This document shows, in pieces, positions 30,634 through 39,006 of a stretch of DNA of 64,000 bases (the stretch's first letter is position 1; every line of letters starts with the position of its first letter). This DNA is from Acidiferrobacteraceae bacterium. Its GTDB lineage: Bacteria > Pseudomonadota > Gammaproteobacteria > Arenicellales > UBA868. The translations under genes were made by a program, and so were the position numbers. The notes below the pieces were generated by a model. The model made no database searches. It saw nothing but the letters and a program-made list of their open reading frames with translations, and was not told the DNA's origin. The stretch covers positions 1 to 64,000 of the forward strand of contig PBOB01000045.1 in the NCBI GenBank assembly GCA_002724185.1. The letters are read 5' to 3'.

Positions 30634-31680
30634 ATGAATACAGCAAATAAGCCAATTAGAGCAGTTGCTTTGCTTTCGGGGGGGTTGGATTCTATGCTTG
30701 CCGCAAGAATTGTAAAGGACCAAGGAATATATGTAGAAGGTCTAAATTTCTTTACCGGCTTTTGCGTGGAAGGGCACACTAATTCAATTCGAAATCATAG
30801 GCCGGCCAAGCGAAACAATGCTCTTTGGGTGGCTGAGCAACTTGATATCCGTCTTAACATTATCGACGTAATTGAGGAATACAAGGATGTCGTGATCAAT
30901 CCAAAACATGGGTATGGAGCTAATTTGAATCCATGTCTTGACTGCAAGTCTTTCATGGTTGGCAAGGCGCGGCAATGGATGGAGGCAAATAGTTTTGACT
31001 TTATTGTCACCGGTGAGGTCCTCGGGCAAAGACCCATGTCTCAGCGTAGGGATACTTTTCCTATTGTTCAGCGTGAATCTGGAGCAAATGACTTATTACT
31101 TCGACCATTGTGCGCCAAGTTATTGCACCCGACTTTGCCTGAGCGAAAAGCATGGGTTGACCGCAAACAACTACACGATTTTTCTGGTAGGGGCCGACGA
31201 CCCCAAATTGAACTAGCAAAAACGCTGAACATCAAGGATTATGCGCAACCGGCGGGTGGTTGTTGTTTTTTGACAGACCCTAACTACACTGCGAAGCTGA
31301 AAGACATGTGGTCGGCTCGACGGGAGAAAAGCTACGATTTGGATGATGTTATGCTGCTGAAGGTTGGTCGCCATCTGCGCCCTGCCCAGCACTACAAAAT
31401 GATCATTGCTCGAGATTCCGGAGAAACCAACTACCTTCAAGGATACCGGCATAGATACGACCATCTTGTTATGATAAGTCATAGAGGCCCTATTACCTTG
31501 TTAGATGGCGATGTTACGAGCGACGATGTGTTTTTTGCTGCACGAATTGCTGCACGATTTGGACAGGGTCGTAAGGCACCAAGAGTTACTTTCATCTCGG
31601 TTAAGCCAGATGGCACAGAGCGACGGATCAGTGTCGCGCCTCTTAGTCCATCAGAGATTATGGATTCTTGGTATCTATGA
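30634..31680 (+). CDS. PP-loop tRNA sulfurtransferase-like protein (ThiI/MnmA-related)
   Basis: The 348-residue product has the adenylating PP-loop LLSGGLDSMLAARIV near residues 13-25. A Cys-x2-Cys pair (PCLDCKSFM, Cys101/Cys104) follows, then FIVTGEVLGQRPMSQ, and a double Cys in QPAGGCCFLTD (about residue 215). This pattern fits thiolating enzymes that use an ATP-activated uridine, often annotated as ThiI- or MnmA-like, but it is not orthodox MnmA or ThiI. Its stop overlaps the start of a TusA-family gene (ATGA), so TusA is the likely sulfur donor. The substrate is not established. Confidence 0.75.
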   Translation: MNTANKPIRAVALLSGGLDSMLAARIVKDQGIYVEGLNFFTGFCVEGHTNSIRNHRPAKRNNALWVAEQLDIRLNIIDVIEEYKDVVINPKHGYGANLNPCLDCKSFMVGKARQWMEANSFDFIVTGEVLGQRPMSQRRDTFPIVQRESGANDLLLRPLCAKLLHPTLPERKAWVDRKQLHDFSGRGRRPQIELAKTLNIKDYAQPAGGCCFLTDPNYTAKLKDMWSARREKSYDLDDVMLLKVGRHLRPAQHYKMIIARDSGETNYLQGYRHRYDHLVMISHRGPITLLDGDVTSDDVFFAARIAARFGQGRKAPRVTFISVKPDGTERRISVAPLSPSEIMDSWYL

Positions 31681-31919
31681 GCTCATATCAATTAGATGCG
31701 CGTAATCTATTGTGTCCAATGCCAGTAATACGTACCCAAAATCGTGTTGCAGAACTAGAAGTTGGGGACGAGCTGGAGATACTCTGCACGGATCCGGGTG
31801 CCCTGACCGACATACCGACATGGTGCAGGATTGAGGGTCACGAAATACTCGAATTGGTCGAGAACGGTAACACGCTGACCATACGGCTTAGGGTTGCGCC
31901 CAAGAGAGTTTTCGACTAA
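31677..31919 (+). CDS. TusA-family sulfurtransferase
   Basis: TusA proteins carry sulfane sulfur as a persulfide to tRNA thiolation, molybdenum cofactor synthesis or dissimilatory sulfur oxidation. The 80-residue product has the signature LDARNLLCPMPVIRTQ with the catalytic Cys in CPxP. ATG at 31677 overlaps the PP-loop gene stop by four bases, implying coupling. A second tusA lies at 41977 in the sulfur block. Confidence 0.9.
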   Translation: MSSYQLDARNLLCPMPVIRTQNRVAELEVGDELEILCTDPGALTDIPTWCRIEGHEILELVENGNTLTIRLRVAPKRVFD

Positions 31920-31923
31920 TATT

Positions 31924-31957
31924 GCACTAAGTTAGTGCATATGCACTATTTTTGTGC
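31924..31957. promoter_or_regulatory. Tandem NtrC-binding sites upstream of glnA
   Basis: Two copies of the NtrC core GCAC-N7-GTGC lie at 31924-31938 and 31943-31957, 19 bases apart. They are arranged like an enhancer and sit about 125-155 bases before the glnA start. No GG-N10-GC sigma54 promoter was seen between them and glnA. Confidence 0.8.
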
Positions 31958-32080
31958 ATAAAGTGGGGTTGATCCTGGACATGGTCCCGACCCGACCATG
32001 TTTATCCGAACTGTGAACTCTAGCACTACTAGCATCCAATTGGGCTTGTTCCAAAACCAAATAATGGGGGTACATCACCT

Positions 32081-33490
32081 ATGTCAGCAGCAGACGTCCT
32101 GAAGCTAATTCAGGAGAAAAAAGCGCAATTTGTAGATTTTCGATTTACCGATAGCCGTGGGAAGGAACAACATGTTTCTGTGCCATCGGATGCCATCTCG
32201 GTGGAAACTTTCGAGGAAGGAAAAATGTTTGACGGCTCGTCAATCGCTGGATGGAAAGGAATTAATGAATCTGACATGATTCTCATGCCTGATTCATCCT
32301 CAGCAGTGATAGATCCATTTATGCAAGATCTCACATTGCAACTTCGTTGCGATGTAGTTGAGCCAGATACAATGCAGGGATACGATAGAGACCCGCGGTC
32401 AATTGCTAAGCGAGCAGAGGCGTATTTGAGATCAACCGGGATTGGCGACGCTGCTTACTTTGGCCCAGAGGCCGAATTTTTTGTTTTTGACTCTGTTAGA
32501 TGGGCGAACGATATAAGTGGTGCGTCATATAAGATTGAATCTACTGAGGCTGCTTGGAGCTCTGATCGCGAGTATGAAGATGGCAATATGGGGCATAGGC
32601 CACGCATCAAGGGCGGCTACTTTCCGGTTCCTCCAGTAGATTCTTTGCAGGACGTCCGATCCGCAATGTGTTTAGCGATGGCAGATATGGATTTATCGGT
32701 AGAAGTACATCACCATGAAGTTGGGACTGCTGGGCAGGGTGAAATTGGTACGCGATTCGATACACTAGTGGCAAAGGCAGATCAACTACAAATATATAAA
32801 TATTGTGTGCATAACGTGGCACACAACTACGGATTGACAGCTACATTTATGCCAAAGCCGCTGGTCGGTGATAATGGCAGTGGAATGCATGTCCATCAGT
32901 CGGTTTTTAAAGGTGACAACAATAAATTCGCTGGCGACGAATATGGTGGTTTATCGACCGAAGCTCTTTACTATATAGGTGGAATTTTTAAGCATGCTCG
33001 CTCCCTTAATGCTTTCACGAATGCGAGCACCAATAGTTACAAGCGCCTCGTGCCCGGATTTGAAGCGCCTGTTCTTTTGGCATATTCAGCGAGAAATCGT
33101 TCGGCCTCTTGTCGTATACCACATGTCTCAAATCCAAAAGGACGAAGGGTAGAGGTGCGTTTTCCAGACGCTACCGCCAATCCATATCTTGCGTTTACCG
33201 CTATGCTCATGGCTGGGTTAGATGGCATTCAGAATAAGATTAACCCAGGGGACCCGCTGGACAAAGATCTCTACGATTTGCCTCCTGAGGAGGAAACAGA
33301 GGTTGCCACGGTTTGCCATTCGCTGGACCAGGCACTAGAAGCTTTAGATAGCGATCGAGATTATCTTAAAGCTGGAGGGGTAATGACCGATGACATGATT
33401 GATGCATACATTGGTTTAAAGATGGAAGAGGTGCAAGCCATGAGGCTGGCAACCCATCCACTTGAATTTGATATGTATTACAGCTCTTGA
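32081..33490 (+). CDS. glnA: Type I glutamine synthetase
   Basis: GlnA assimilates ammonium into glutamine. The 469-residue product has [13 protein letters not shown], the metal-site [15 protein letters not shown], the ATP-site [10 protein letters not shown], and NRSASCRIP. The adenylylation Tyr lies in [10 protein letters not shown], so control by GlnE is expected. It precedes ntrB-ntrC as in other gammaproteobacteria. Ammonia released by the thiocyanate hydrolase encoded nearby is a plausible feed for it. Confidence 0.98.
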
Positions 33491-33543: not shown

Positions 33544-34644
33544 ATGGCGTTCTCGGAAATTGAATCCAGGCTAGAGTACTACTCTGGATCGAGTCTTTTA
33601 AATTCACTGACAACAGCGGTGTTGTTGATTGATCAACAACGGCGAGTGCATTATCTGAACGGCGCGGCCGAGACGCTGTTATCGGTCAGCTCAAGTCGCG
33701 CTATTGGTCGATCAGCAGATGAGCTTCTCGGAATTGGAGCTTTATTGCAGGGCGCAATTTCTGCGGCCTCGGATGGCCATACGACAACGTTCCGATCGGT
33801 CGACATTTTCTCGTGTTCGGTTACATATAAGCATGGAGGTGGAGCAAGAGTTGATTGCACTGTCTCGCCGTTTGCCGTGGGCGCGACCGAGTCGTGGGCT
33901 TTGACCGAATTAGTCGTTACCGAACCGTCAGTGCAACCGGCTCCTGACATTGATTTGCATGAGAGCCATGCTGCTACTAGTGAAGTAATACAGACCCTCG
34001 CCCATGAGATTAAGAATCCGCTGGGAGGGTTGCGCGGCGCAGCTCAGCTTCTTCATAGAAACAATTCGGAAAATAACGAGCAGCTCAATTACATTGAAAT
34101 CATCATCCGGGAAGCTGATAGATTAGCAGAGCTCGTCGATAGAATGACTGGTCCTTACAAGCAGGAGGTACGGGGCCTGTGTAATTTGCACGAGGTCCTC
34201 GAACATGTCCGACATTTGATTGAGGCTGAGTTTACAAACGCAATGTCAATTAAGCGTGATTATGATCCAAGCATTCCAATGATTATGATTCAAAGGGAGT
34301 ATCTGATTCAGGCTTTGCTCAATATTGCTCGAAATGCCGCGCAGGCAATAGGCGGCATTGGAGATATTGTATTTCAAACCAGAATTAGGCGACAGGTAAC
34401 CATTGGTCGACGCCGACACCGGCATGTTGTGGAAGTATCAATTTGTGATAAAGGGCCAGGTATAGCAGTGGAGTTACAGCAGAAGATGTTCTTGCCAATG
34501 ATAACGGGTAAGACTGGAGGCACCGGACTAGGTCTAACAATAGCTAGAGATTTGATAGATCGACAAGGCGGTGCTATTGAGTTTGTTAGTTCTCCGGGGA
34601 ATACTCGCTTTAGTATCTTTTTGCCAGCAGGACATGAGGCATGA
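33544..34644 (+). CDS. glnL: Nitrogen regulation sensor kinase NtrB
   Basis: NtrB phosphorylates NtrC when nitrogen is limiting and acts as its phosphatase with GlnB. The 366-residue soluble product has an N-terminal PAS domain (TAVLLIDQQRRVHYLNGAAETLL), the H-box TLAHEIKNPLGGLRGAAQLL, N-box NIARNAAQAIG, and the G-boxes CDKGPGI and GGTGLGLTIARDL. All catalytic motifs are intact. It overlaps ntrC by ATGA. Confidence 0.95.
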   Translation: MAFSEIESRLEYYSGSSLLNSLTTAVLLIDQQRRVHYLNGAAETLLSVSSSRAIGRSADELLGIGALLQGAISAASDGHTTTFRSVDIFSCSVTYKHGGGARVDCTVSPFAVGATESWALTELVVTEPSVQPAPDIDLHESHAATSEVIQTLAHEIKNPLGGLRGAAQLLHRNNSENNEQLNYIEIIIREADRLAELVDRMTGPYKQEVRGLCNLHEVLEHVRHLIEAEFTNAMSIKRDYDPSIPMIMIQREYLIQALLNIARNAAQAIGGIGDIVFQTRIRRQVTIGRRRHRHVVEVSICDKGPGIAVELQQKMFLPMITGKTGGTGLGLTIARDLIDRQGGAIEFVSSPGNTRFSIFLPAGHEA

Positions 34645-35222
34645 CCAATAAGAATCAAGTGTGGATCGTAGATGATGATGTTTCGATTCGCTGGGTTTTA
34701 GAGCGAGCGTTAGTTGATGCGGGATATATAGTACGTCAGTTTGGAAATGCCGATGAAGCTACCGAGATGTTGGGTTATGAGCGGCCTCACGTAGTTATTA
34801 CGGATATCCGTATGCCTGGACGCACTGGTCTCGAGTTTCTAGATCTATTGGCATTACGTTTTCCCGAGATACCTGTTGTGCTAATGACCGCATATACTTC
34901 ATTAGATCAGGCAGTAGCTGCATATCGCGGCGGCGCATTTGAGTATTTGGCCAAACCTTTCGATTTGGATGAAGCTATAGCATTAGTACGTCGTGCGCTT
35001 ATCAAACGAACTGATTGGCAAGTAGCACTGCGCATTTCTGTGGATGAACATCTTGCCTCGAATGGTTCGGATTTGCTGCAGAGATTTGGCGGTGAATTTG
35101 AAAAAGTACTTCTTCAAGCCACCCTTGCATTTACTGGAGGCAGGAAACAGGAAGCAGCTCGCCGAATTGGATGGAGTAGAAATACGCTCGCCAGAAAGTT
35201 AAAGGAACACAAAATCGAATAA
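34641..35222 (+). CDS. NtrC-like response regulator lacking the AAA+ domain
   Basis: At 193 residues this is far shorter than NtrC (about 470). The receiver is complete: acidic pair Asp11/Asp12, phospho-acceptor Asp55 in VVITDIRMPG, Thr83 and Lys105 in EYLAKPFDLDE. A linker of about 20 residues leads directly to the NtrC-type Fis DNA-binding end (LQATLAFTGGRKQEAARRIGWSRNTLARKLKEHKIE region, about 158-193). Both ends look like NtrC, but the central sigma54-activating AAA+ module (no Walker A, no GAFTGA) is gone. The reading frame is continuous, so it is a domain loss rather than a frameshift. It probably acts on sigma70 promoters or as a repressor. Confidence 0.9.
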   Translation: MTNKNQVWIVDDDVSIRWVLERALVDAGYIVRQFGNADEATEMLGYERPHVVITDIRMPGRTGLEFLDLLALRFPEIPVVLMTAYTSLDQAVAAYRGGAFEYLAKPFDLDEAIALVRRALIKRTDWQVALRISVDEHLASNGSDLLQRFGGEFEKVLLQATLAFTGGRKQEAARRIGWSRNTLARKLKEHKIE

Positions 35223-36984: not shown

Positions 36985-37460
36985 AGTGTTTTATCTTATC
37001 TGATCTGTGAATTTCTGGCTAAATCATAACGCTATCACTGGCATCCACAACCAAACACATTTGGAAATAGCACCATATACGGTATAGCAGGAGTCAGAAC
37101 TCCATTGAGTCGGTGCTTGATCGTCTTGAGCAAGATTATGTAGAGCGAGCGAGGGCGACTATTTTCATCCGACATCCACATCAGCAGCGATATAGTAAAC
37201 TAGCCAATTAAACAGCTATTTATTAGTTATATGTCAAGCTAATTGACAAGTCTGATATGTGCGTCATCGGCCGCAAGAAAAATTATCCAAGACTACAATA
37301 GATAATTCCTATAAGATTCATTAGGAAAACATTCTTGTAACTTGTGCAAGACGCGAGCACTATAGGAATGCTTAAGAACGACTTGCTGTGGTTTTCGGAC
37401 TTGGATTACTGGAAATCTTTTTCGATAACCGGCAATGAGATTAAAGGAGAACGAAAGGCT
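36985..37460. promoter_or_regulatory. Upstream region of the scn cluster
   Basis: This 476-base gap precedes scnB. TGTCAA-N5-TTGACA, a perfect 6-base inverted repeat, lies at 37232-37248; it also fits the LysR T-N11-A pattern. A short open frame without ATG (37071-37211, in-frame GTG at 37113) has a coding-like product tail (LDRLEQDYVERARA), possibly a gene remnant. A weak in-frame GTG at 37344 extends scnB but is not favoured. Nothing else was recognised. Confidence 0.4.
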
Positions 37461-37910
37461 ATGTCATCCCGTGACACTATTATGCGGCATCTTAATATCG
37501 TCGGTCAGCTGCAACCCTCGTTGCACCAGCCACAGCATGCCCCTTATCCGGACCTTGTAGATAACGCCCATTATCGAGCATATACCCGCGCCTCTCACGA
37601 TGTTGGAGGTGAAGCGGACGTTCCTATTACTTGGGAAGAGAAGGAGGAAGAGATTTGGGAGCACAACACGTTTGTTACCTGTGAGGTATTAGCCTGGCGC
37701 GGTGTTTGGAACGCGGAAGAACGAAGACGGCGTCAGAACGTGGACCCCGGACAGACTATATATCTTGGCTTGCCGTATTACGGCAGGTGGCTTATGACAA
37801 TAGCCCTGATTTTAGTAGACAAGCAACACGTTAAACTGACTGAGCTTATAGACAAGATAGAAGACGTTAAGCAGCGGGCTAAGGCTAATGGAGGCAAGGT
37901 TTATGAGTAA
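37461..37910 (+). CDS. scnB: Thiocyanate hydrolase beta subunit (ScnB)
   Basis: Thiocyanate hydrolase converts SCN- and water to carbonyl sulfide and ammonia. ScnB corresponds to the N-terminal half of the nitrile hydratase beta subunit. The 149-residue product has PQHAPYPDLVDNAHYRAYTR, WRGVWNAEERRRR and GLPYYGRWLM. The Arg cluster at 88-91 lies where the family's beta-Arg pair contacts the oxidised Cys ligands (T. thioparus Arg90/Arg91). ATG at 37461 has AAAGGAG upstream and matches the family length (about 157). It overlaps scnA. Confidence 0.9.
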   Translation: MSSRDTIMRHLNIVGQLQPSLHQPQHAPYPDLVDNAHYRAYTRASHDVGGEADVPITWEEKEEEIWEHNTFVTCEVLAWRGVWNAEERRRRQNVDPGQTIYLGLPYYGRWLMTIALILVDKQHVKLTELIDKIEDVKQRAKANGGKVYE

Positions 37911-38256
37911 GAGTCATCATGTTGAAAAAGCAACTGGAATCGGCGATCCGCAATGCTTCAAAGGAGAGGCGGGCAAGCCGAAATTTGGCGTTGGTGACAA
38001 AGTTCGGATTCGGAACCTGCCGGATATTTTTTATACGCGATCTCAGATGTATCTGAGAGAAGCGGAAGCGACTGTGGTCAAATTGGTTTATGAAAGCCCT
38101 CCTGCAGAAGATGAGGCATGGGATAATACCGACAGCCCCGAGTGGTTTTACAGCGTACTTTTTAGACAAACGGATTTATGGCCAGATTATCCGCAAAAGT
38201 TTGCTGGTGATACACTGGAGACGGAGTTGTCGGAACGATGGCTCGAGCCACTTTGA
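37903..38256 (+). CDS. scnA: Thiocyanate hydrolase alpha subunit (ScnA)
   Basis: ScnA corresponds to the C-terminal half of the nitrile hydratase beta subunit, with the SH3-like barrel. The 117-residue product contains PKFGVGDKVRIRNLPDI, YTRSQMYLREAEATVV and WFYSVLFRQTDLWP. ATG at 37903 has GGAGG upstream and overlaps the scnB stop; ATG at 37888 is an alternative. Family length is about 126 residues. It follows scnB and precedes scnC as in Thiobacillus. Confidence 0.9.
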   Translation: MSKSHHVEKATGIGDPQCFKGEAGKPKFGVGDKVRIRNLPDIFYTRSQMYLREAEATVVKLVYESPPAEDEAWDNTDSPEWFYSVLFRQTDLWPDYPQKFAGDTLETELSERWLEPL

Positions 38257-38298
38257 GTGGATGAGTAGACTCAGAATATAAATAGAGGAACGAGGAGA

Positions 38299-39006
38299 AT
38301 GTCAAAGTCAGATAAGCACGATCATAATGCTGCCCCAATGGTTGACGAAATTAGTGATTTCGAGGTGCTGGAGGTAGCCGTCCGAGAGCTCTGCATCGAG
38401 AAGGGTTTGTTTACCCAAGAAGACCATAATGAGTGGACGGAATACATGCACACCTTGGGCCCCCTTCCCGCAGGTCGCTTGGTAGCGAAGGCCTGGCTGG
38501 ATCCAGAGTACAAACAACTTTGTATTGATGATCCAGTAAAGGCGAGTCTCGAGGTAGGTATAGATTGGATTAATAGTATGCCATCAAAATTTGGGACTCC
38601 GAGTGATTATTGTAATCCTAGAATCTTGGTGGATACTCCAACACTAAAACACGTGGTGGTATGCACGTTGTGCTCTTGTTATCCAAGGCCCATATTGGGA
38701 CAGTCGCCCGAATGGTATCGGACTCCAAACTACCGACGCCGAATGGTCCGGTGGCCTCGCCAGGTTCTGTCTGAGTTTGGATTGCAGTTACCAGAGGACG
38801 TTGAGATAAGGGTTGCGGACTCCAATCAAAAAACGAGATATGTTGTAATGCCAATTCGACCCGATGGTACGGAAGGATGGACGGAGGACCAATTAACGGA
38901 AATCGTCACTCGGGACTGTTTGATCGGAGTAGCATTACCGCGGGCAGATCGCAAAGCGGACGACAAGCGGCCGATCCACAAGGCGGTTCATCCTTACGGT
39001 CATTAA
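38299..39006 (+). CDS. scnC: Thiocyanate hydrolase gamma subunit (ScnC), cobalt site
   Basis: ScnC corresponds to the nitrile hydratase alpha subunit and carries the active metal. The 235-residue product has VVCTLCSCYPRPILG: Cys122-x2-Cys125-Ser126-Cys127, offset six from T. thioparus Cys128/131/133, where two Cys are oxidised to sulfinate and sulfenate. The Thr in the CTLC motif (not Ser) is the cobalt-type signature. Conserved WYRTPNYRRRMVRWPR and VLSEFGLQLP follow. A GGAGAATG-type ribosome-binding site precedes it. No deletion or frameshift is seen. Confidence 0.95.
   Translation: MSKSDKHDHNAAPMVDEISDFEVLEVAVRELCIEKGLFTQEDHNEWTEYMHTLGPLPAGRLVAKAWLDPEYKQLCIDDPVKASLEVGIDWINSMPSKFGTPSDYCNPRILVDTPTLKHVVVCTLCSCYPRPILGQSPEWYRTPNYRRRMVRWPRQVLSEFGLQLPEDVEIRVADSNQKTRYVVMPIRPDGTEGWTEDQLTEIVTRDCLIGVALPRADRKADDKRPIHKAVHPYGH

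Follow-up and report, generated by a model that had tools for sequence, protein, structure and literature searches.

An NtrC without Its AAA+ Domain at a glnA-ntrB-ntrC Locus, Its Recurrence in Related Genomes, and the Loss of Sigma54

NtrC and Its Described Sigma54-Independent Variants

The textbook example of enhancer-driven transcription in bacteria is NtrC with sigma54. Phosphorylated NtrC oligomerizes through its AAA+ domain and remodels the sigma54 polymerase, and the Fis-type domain of NtrC is by itself able to dimerize and to bind DNA. The locus considered here shares with the enterobacterial NtrC (NR-I) system the receiver, the Fis-type domain, the glnA-ntrB-ntrC operon, and the paired GCAC-N7-GTGC boxes at glnA, but it has neither the AAA+ domain, nor sigma54, nor the −24/−12 promoter of glnA.

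NtrC proteins that do without sigma54 are already known, yet these retain the AAA+ domain. The GAFTGA-less NtrC proteins of Rhodobacter capsulatus and Caulobacter, which are likewise uncoupled from sigma54, have been reported to act at sigma70 promoters, and a Caulobacter allele with the AAA+ domain deleted is non-functional (PMC10274813). Both proteins thus keep and need the domain (in R. capsulatus, ATP binding), whereas the short NtrC is without the whole of it. TyrR, HupR, DhaR, and VpsR are relatives of the sigma54 activators that do not interact with sigma54 (PMC3162934); there the loss came about through changes of the GAFTGA loop, and not through excision of a domain as in the short NtrC. 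The regulators of the ActR/PrrA/RegA type consist, like the short protein, of a receiver and a Fis-type domain only (ca. 180–200 residues), but the sequence of the short protein is that of NtrC and its partner is NtrB. In the open-access literature searched, a natural and recurrent excision of the whole AAA+ domain, accompanied by loss of rpoN and of the −24/−12 element with the boxes kept, is unreported, and no experimental precedent was found there for an AAA+-less NtrC that works.

The Short ntrC Gene and Its Counterparts in Relatives

In the window, a stretch of 64,000 nucleotides from an Acidiferrobacteraceae genome, glnA, ntrB, and the short ntrC follow one another on the + strand (Table 1). 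The short gene begins with ATG, and its open frame codes for 193 residues. An earlier note on this DNA had described an intact receiver joined in a continuous frame to an NtrC-type Fis end, with no AAA+ module between them and with an intact ntrB next door, and the open reading frame, Pfam, NCBIfam, and PDB matches bear out this description in full. Pfam places Response_reg at residues 7–116 (1.9e-26) and the Fis-type HTH_8 at residues 152–189 (1.3e-14), and its scan finds no Sigma54_activat (PF00158) in the 193-residue protein. In the family alignment, residues 124 and 125 form the join, at which the relatives have ca. 270 residues with the AAA+ domain, and the gap spans this entire domain. 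The AAA+ module with Walker motifs and GAFTGA loop that characterizes a sigma54 activator is therefore missing.

What is left is recognizably NtrC. The best NCBIfam model is TIGR01818 (ntrC), matched in two stretches with 201.9 bits, which falls below the curated cut-off of 558.6 bits set for the full-length protein. The closest PDB chains of the two halves are both from NtrC, namely the receiver 1dc7 and the DNA-binding domain 1ntc, the latter over profile positions 122–189. The receiver has kept the phosphoacceptor D55, the acidic D11/D12, T83, and K105, and it is followed by a Fis-type DNA-binding domain of the NtrC kind. In an AlphaFold model (pLDDT 81), the receiver is complete and the C-terminal domain has four helices, in line with expectation; a fold search with this model added nothing on function. 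On sequence grounds, the short gene derives from an ntrC that has lost its sigma54-activating AAA+ domain by in-frame excision at the domain borders. A second full-length NtrC that could pair with NtrB, a possibility raised in the earlier note, was not found in the genome of the window (a metagenome-assembled genome, MAG, 93% complete), where other receiver matches are far weaker.

Table 1. Coordinates of the features discussed (positions in the window unless a contig is given)
Feature	Position	Strand	Basis
NtrC box 1, TGCACTAAGTTAGTGCA	31923..31939	.	TGCAC-N7-GTGCA pattern, upstream of glnA
Weak sigma70-like candidate, GTGCAT-N18-TAAAGT, overlapping the boxes	31935..31964	+	PWM scan, inference only
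NtrC box 2, TGCACTATTTTTGTGCA	31942..31958	.	TGCAC-N7-GTGCA pattern, upstream of glnA
glnA, glutamine synthetase type I	32081..33490	+	TIGR00653, 658 bits (cut-off 429)
ntrB, intact sensor kinase	33544..34644	+	NF008293, 291.2 bits (cut-off 240)
AAA+-less NtrC, 193 aa (receiver + Fis-type DNA-binding domain)	34641..35222	+	ORF, Pfam, NCBIfam
NtrC receiver domain, residues 1–123, acceptor D55	34641..35009	+	PF00072 7–116; TIGR01818 7–123; PDB 1dc7, 8.3e-51
NtrC DNA-binding/dimerization domain, residues 126–193	35016..35219	+	PF02954; family alignment; PDB 1ntc, 3.2e-16
rpoN remnant of G006	contig C1 (L186) 1731–2222	minus	open frame, 164 codons

The same short form is present in other genomes, all of them MAGs. 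Besides the genome of the window (G000), it was found directly behind ntrB in a member of the same genus (G001, 72% identity) and in a member of another genus of the same family (G006, 55% identity). Among 369 genomes searched within the class, one further short NtrC turned up, in a genome of another family (G371), and among the best 80 matches in the named collection, complete short forms occur only in G001 and G006. The genome G010 was considered as one without NtrC, but it is uninformative, its assembly being also without glnA. When the short forms are aligned with 18 full-length NtrCs from the family, one of the checks proposed in the earlier note, the excised segment is seen to start where the receiver ends and to reach as far as the tryptophan at the head of the DNA-binding domain. 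In the trees of GlnA and NtrB, G000 pairs with G001, G006 is nested in a clade with the full-length genomes G013 and G016, and G371 is distant. The trees show three origins of the short NtrC, and their well-supported branches require no fewer than two. Each time it is precisely the motor domain that is lost, and the sensor side and the DNA sites stay.

Directly upstream of glnA (window 30634–31919) lie genes for an MnmA/ThiI-like protein with an NFACT-R_2 domain and then for a TusA-like protein, an order that is kept in G001 and G006.

Fate of Sigma54 and of the glnA Promoter

A search for rpoN, which the earlier note had also proposed, shows that the gene is deleted from its native site in G000. 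On contig C10, kdsD-lptC-lptA-lptB is followed after ca. 50 bp by ptsN and then by HPr and ptsI; rpoN, hpf, and rapZ are missing between lptB and ptsN, where G001 has all three. The sole rpoN match of the genome is an intact gene on contig C6, and no Sigma54 domain was found elsewhere in this 93% complete MAG. Contig C6 is a contaminant. Its tetranucleotide correlation with the genome is 0.31, vs 0.74–0.89 for pieces of the window and ca. 0.8 for contigs C10 and C83, and it bears a second lptB that is 55–58% identical to those of the family, compared to ca. 71% for the native lptB. The RpoN encoded on it is ca. 28–32% identical to the RpoN of the relatives and 45% identical over the short conserved remnant of G006. 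It was first suspected from this gene that sigma54 had been kept without its activator, a reading that was rejected on account of the foreign origin of the contig. A plain rpoN search in this MAG would hence mislead, because the only match is a false positive from contamination. The contig (L194) carries genes of another organism, namely lptB, rpoN, a glycosyltransferase, and a UDP-GlcNAc epimerase.

The closed native locus, together with the 93% completeness, indicates that sigma54 has been lost in the lineage of G000 along with the AAA+ domain of NtrC. In G001, rpoN is a pseudogene: ahead of the RpoN box its frame is broken by two in-frame stops and a frameshift, and the contig itself starts inside the gene. 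In G006, just the DNA-binding C-terminal end is left, between lptB and ptsN (Table 1). The relatives with full-length NtrC have an open rpoN frame, save a few incomplete genomes without a match and one in which a contig end truncates the gene. Living relatives thus display a stepwise break-up of the pair, from the intact pair through a truncated rpoN and an rpoN with stops to a deleted one. G371 retains rpoN and several sigma54 activators, and therefore loss of sigma54 is no prerequisite for loss of the AAA+ domain; the two losses are coupled in two of the three origins of the short NtrC.

We have also considered NtrX, the only other sigma54-activator-like AAA+ protein of G000, G001, and G006, as a substitute activator. 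This candidate was rejected, since GAFTGA is absent from NtrX in every family member read. The sigma54-contact loop of NtrX is degenerate in all of these (L063–L066, L069–L071, L086), even where rpoN is intact.

The −24/−12 promoter of glnA has been lost as well. In all 17 full-length-NtrC genomes with a complete glnA upstream region, the −24/−12 element (TGGCAC...TTGCT) is near-perfect, with 0.93–1.00 of the maximum score, and upstream of it lie two NtrC boxes, one of which deviates at a single position in some genomes. The element is lost in the four short-NtrC genomes, where the best scores are 0.61 (G000), 0.70 (G001), 0.79 (G006), and 0.65 (G371), although this contrast of 17/17 vs 0/4 corresponds to only three independent events. 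The boxes, in turn, have stayed: perfect palindromes are found at glnA in all four, two each in G000, G001, and G006 and one in G371, and those of the window are the two that the earlier note had placed upstream of glnA. Judged from these sequences, the circuit has retained its operators where its sigma54 components have decayed. The pattern TGCAC-N7-GTGCA has five matches in G000 and none when read backwards. By the open reading frames read, only the glnA pair is intergenic, and a wider NtrC regulon in this genome was accordingly rejected. An Rfam scan around the glnA-ntrBC locus gave no match.

Proposed Mechanism and Alternative Readings

Observed, then, are the loss of the AAA+ domain and its recurrence, the loss of rpoN and of the −24/−12 element, and the retention of ntrB, the acceptor site, and the boxes. 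We consider it likely that NtrC has here become a two-domain regulator of the PrrA/RegA kind, which uses the old boxes to modulate glnA-ntrBC transcription from a sigma70 promoter. NtrB would phosphorylate Asp55 of the short receiver, and the Fis-type domain, with the dimerization and recognition helices of NtrC, would bind the paired boxes upstream of glnA. Since sigma54 and the −24/−12 element are lost, transcription of glnA-ntrB-ntrC would have to start at a housekeeping-sigma promoter, presumably near the boxes. The phosphorylated short NtrC would probably modulate this promoter directly, by analogy with PrrA/RegA or OmpR-type regulators. As to the mode, activation from a position beside or over the −35 region appears most likely, and repression as at E. 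coli glnAp1 less so. The more specific reading, that repeated AAA+ excision and sigma54 loss have made NtrC a phosphorylation-dependent sigma70 activator of glnA, with the ancestral enhancer boxes serving as proximal operators, is put forward tentatively, at somewhat less than an even chance. Activation is favored over repression, which is a close rival, and the sign of the control is a guess. The earlier note had suggested a rewired nitrogen circuit that uses sigma70 or repression. That the circuit is off sigma54 holds, given the loss of rpoN and of the −24/−12 element; either of the other two terms may apply, the boxes overlapping or abutting weak sigma70-like elements.

According to the closest alternative, which is possible if on the doubtful side, the short NtrC is a pure repressor or autoregulator that sits on boxes over a sigma70 promoter and lowers glnA-ntrBC, the positive nitrogen control having been lost. 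E. coli NtrC does repress the sigma70 promoter glnAp1 (PMC3870243), and a repressor need not evolve a new contact with RNA polymerase. In the PWM scan, the best sigma70-like elements overlap or abut the boxes in G000, in G006, and in the full-length G013 and G016, the candidate TATAAT being strong in G006 and its full-length sisters and weak in the window, where a stricter consensus scanner gave no sigma70 promoter upstream of glnA. On the other hand, a phosphorylated NtrC that lowers glutamine synthetase in nitrogen limitation would alone make little physiological sense. Moreover, the distance between the two boxes is 19 bp in the window vs 29–32 bp in the relatives, and both palindromes are still perfect, which hints at a new promoter geometry. 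In G371 (L185), a TTGGCA-N16-TACAAT lies near glnA, in which the old −24 may be reused as a −35.

Because rpoN has gone from G000 and is in decay in both G001 and G006, one may ask whether the short ntrC is itself a functionless relic, decaying after its purpose went with sigma54. This is unlikely. The frame, the active-site residues of the receiver, and the greater part of the recognition helix are kept in two species that have reached saturation at synonymous sites (dN 0.24), ntrB and the palindromic boxes are kept in three lineages, and the rpoN of G001 shows what a real relic looks like.

It is very improbable that the short protein belongs to the ActR/PrrA/RegA receiver-Fis family and merely adjoins ntrB. 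The order of the two domains and the size are alike, and the ActR/PrrA model NF033791 does match; however, its 65.2 bits are far under the equivalog cut-off of 250, both domains match NtrC best by HMM and PDB comparison, and the gene occupies the ntrC position of the glnA-ntrB-ntrC order. An assembly or sequencing artefact that dropped an internal segment of ntrC, which the earlier note had also raised and which would be a natural suspicion for a single locus in one MAG, is a negligible prospect, because independent assemblies of G001 and G006 have the same short form at the orthologous glnA-ntrB loci, with linkers whose lengths differ between the lineages.

If the more specific reading of a phosphorylation-dependent sigma70 activator is true, NtrC illustrates how an enhancer-binding protein of the sigma54 system can naturally turn into a regulator like PrrA. 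The stepwise break-up seen in living relatives opens to direct test in what way a circuit outlives its sigma factor, whether distal enhancers turn into proximal operators, and whether two-domain receiver-Fis regulators can be born by domain loss.

A thiocyanate hydrolase cluster (window 37344–39006) lies ca. 2 kb downstream of glnA-ntrBC. Its gamma subunit scores 369 bits against a curated cut-off of 291 and is preceded by two nitrile-hydratase-beta-like subunits; thiocyanate is a possible source of ammonia.
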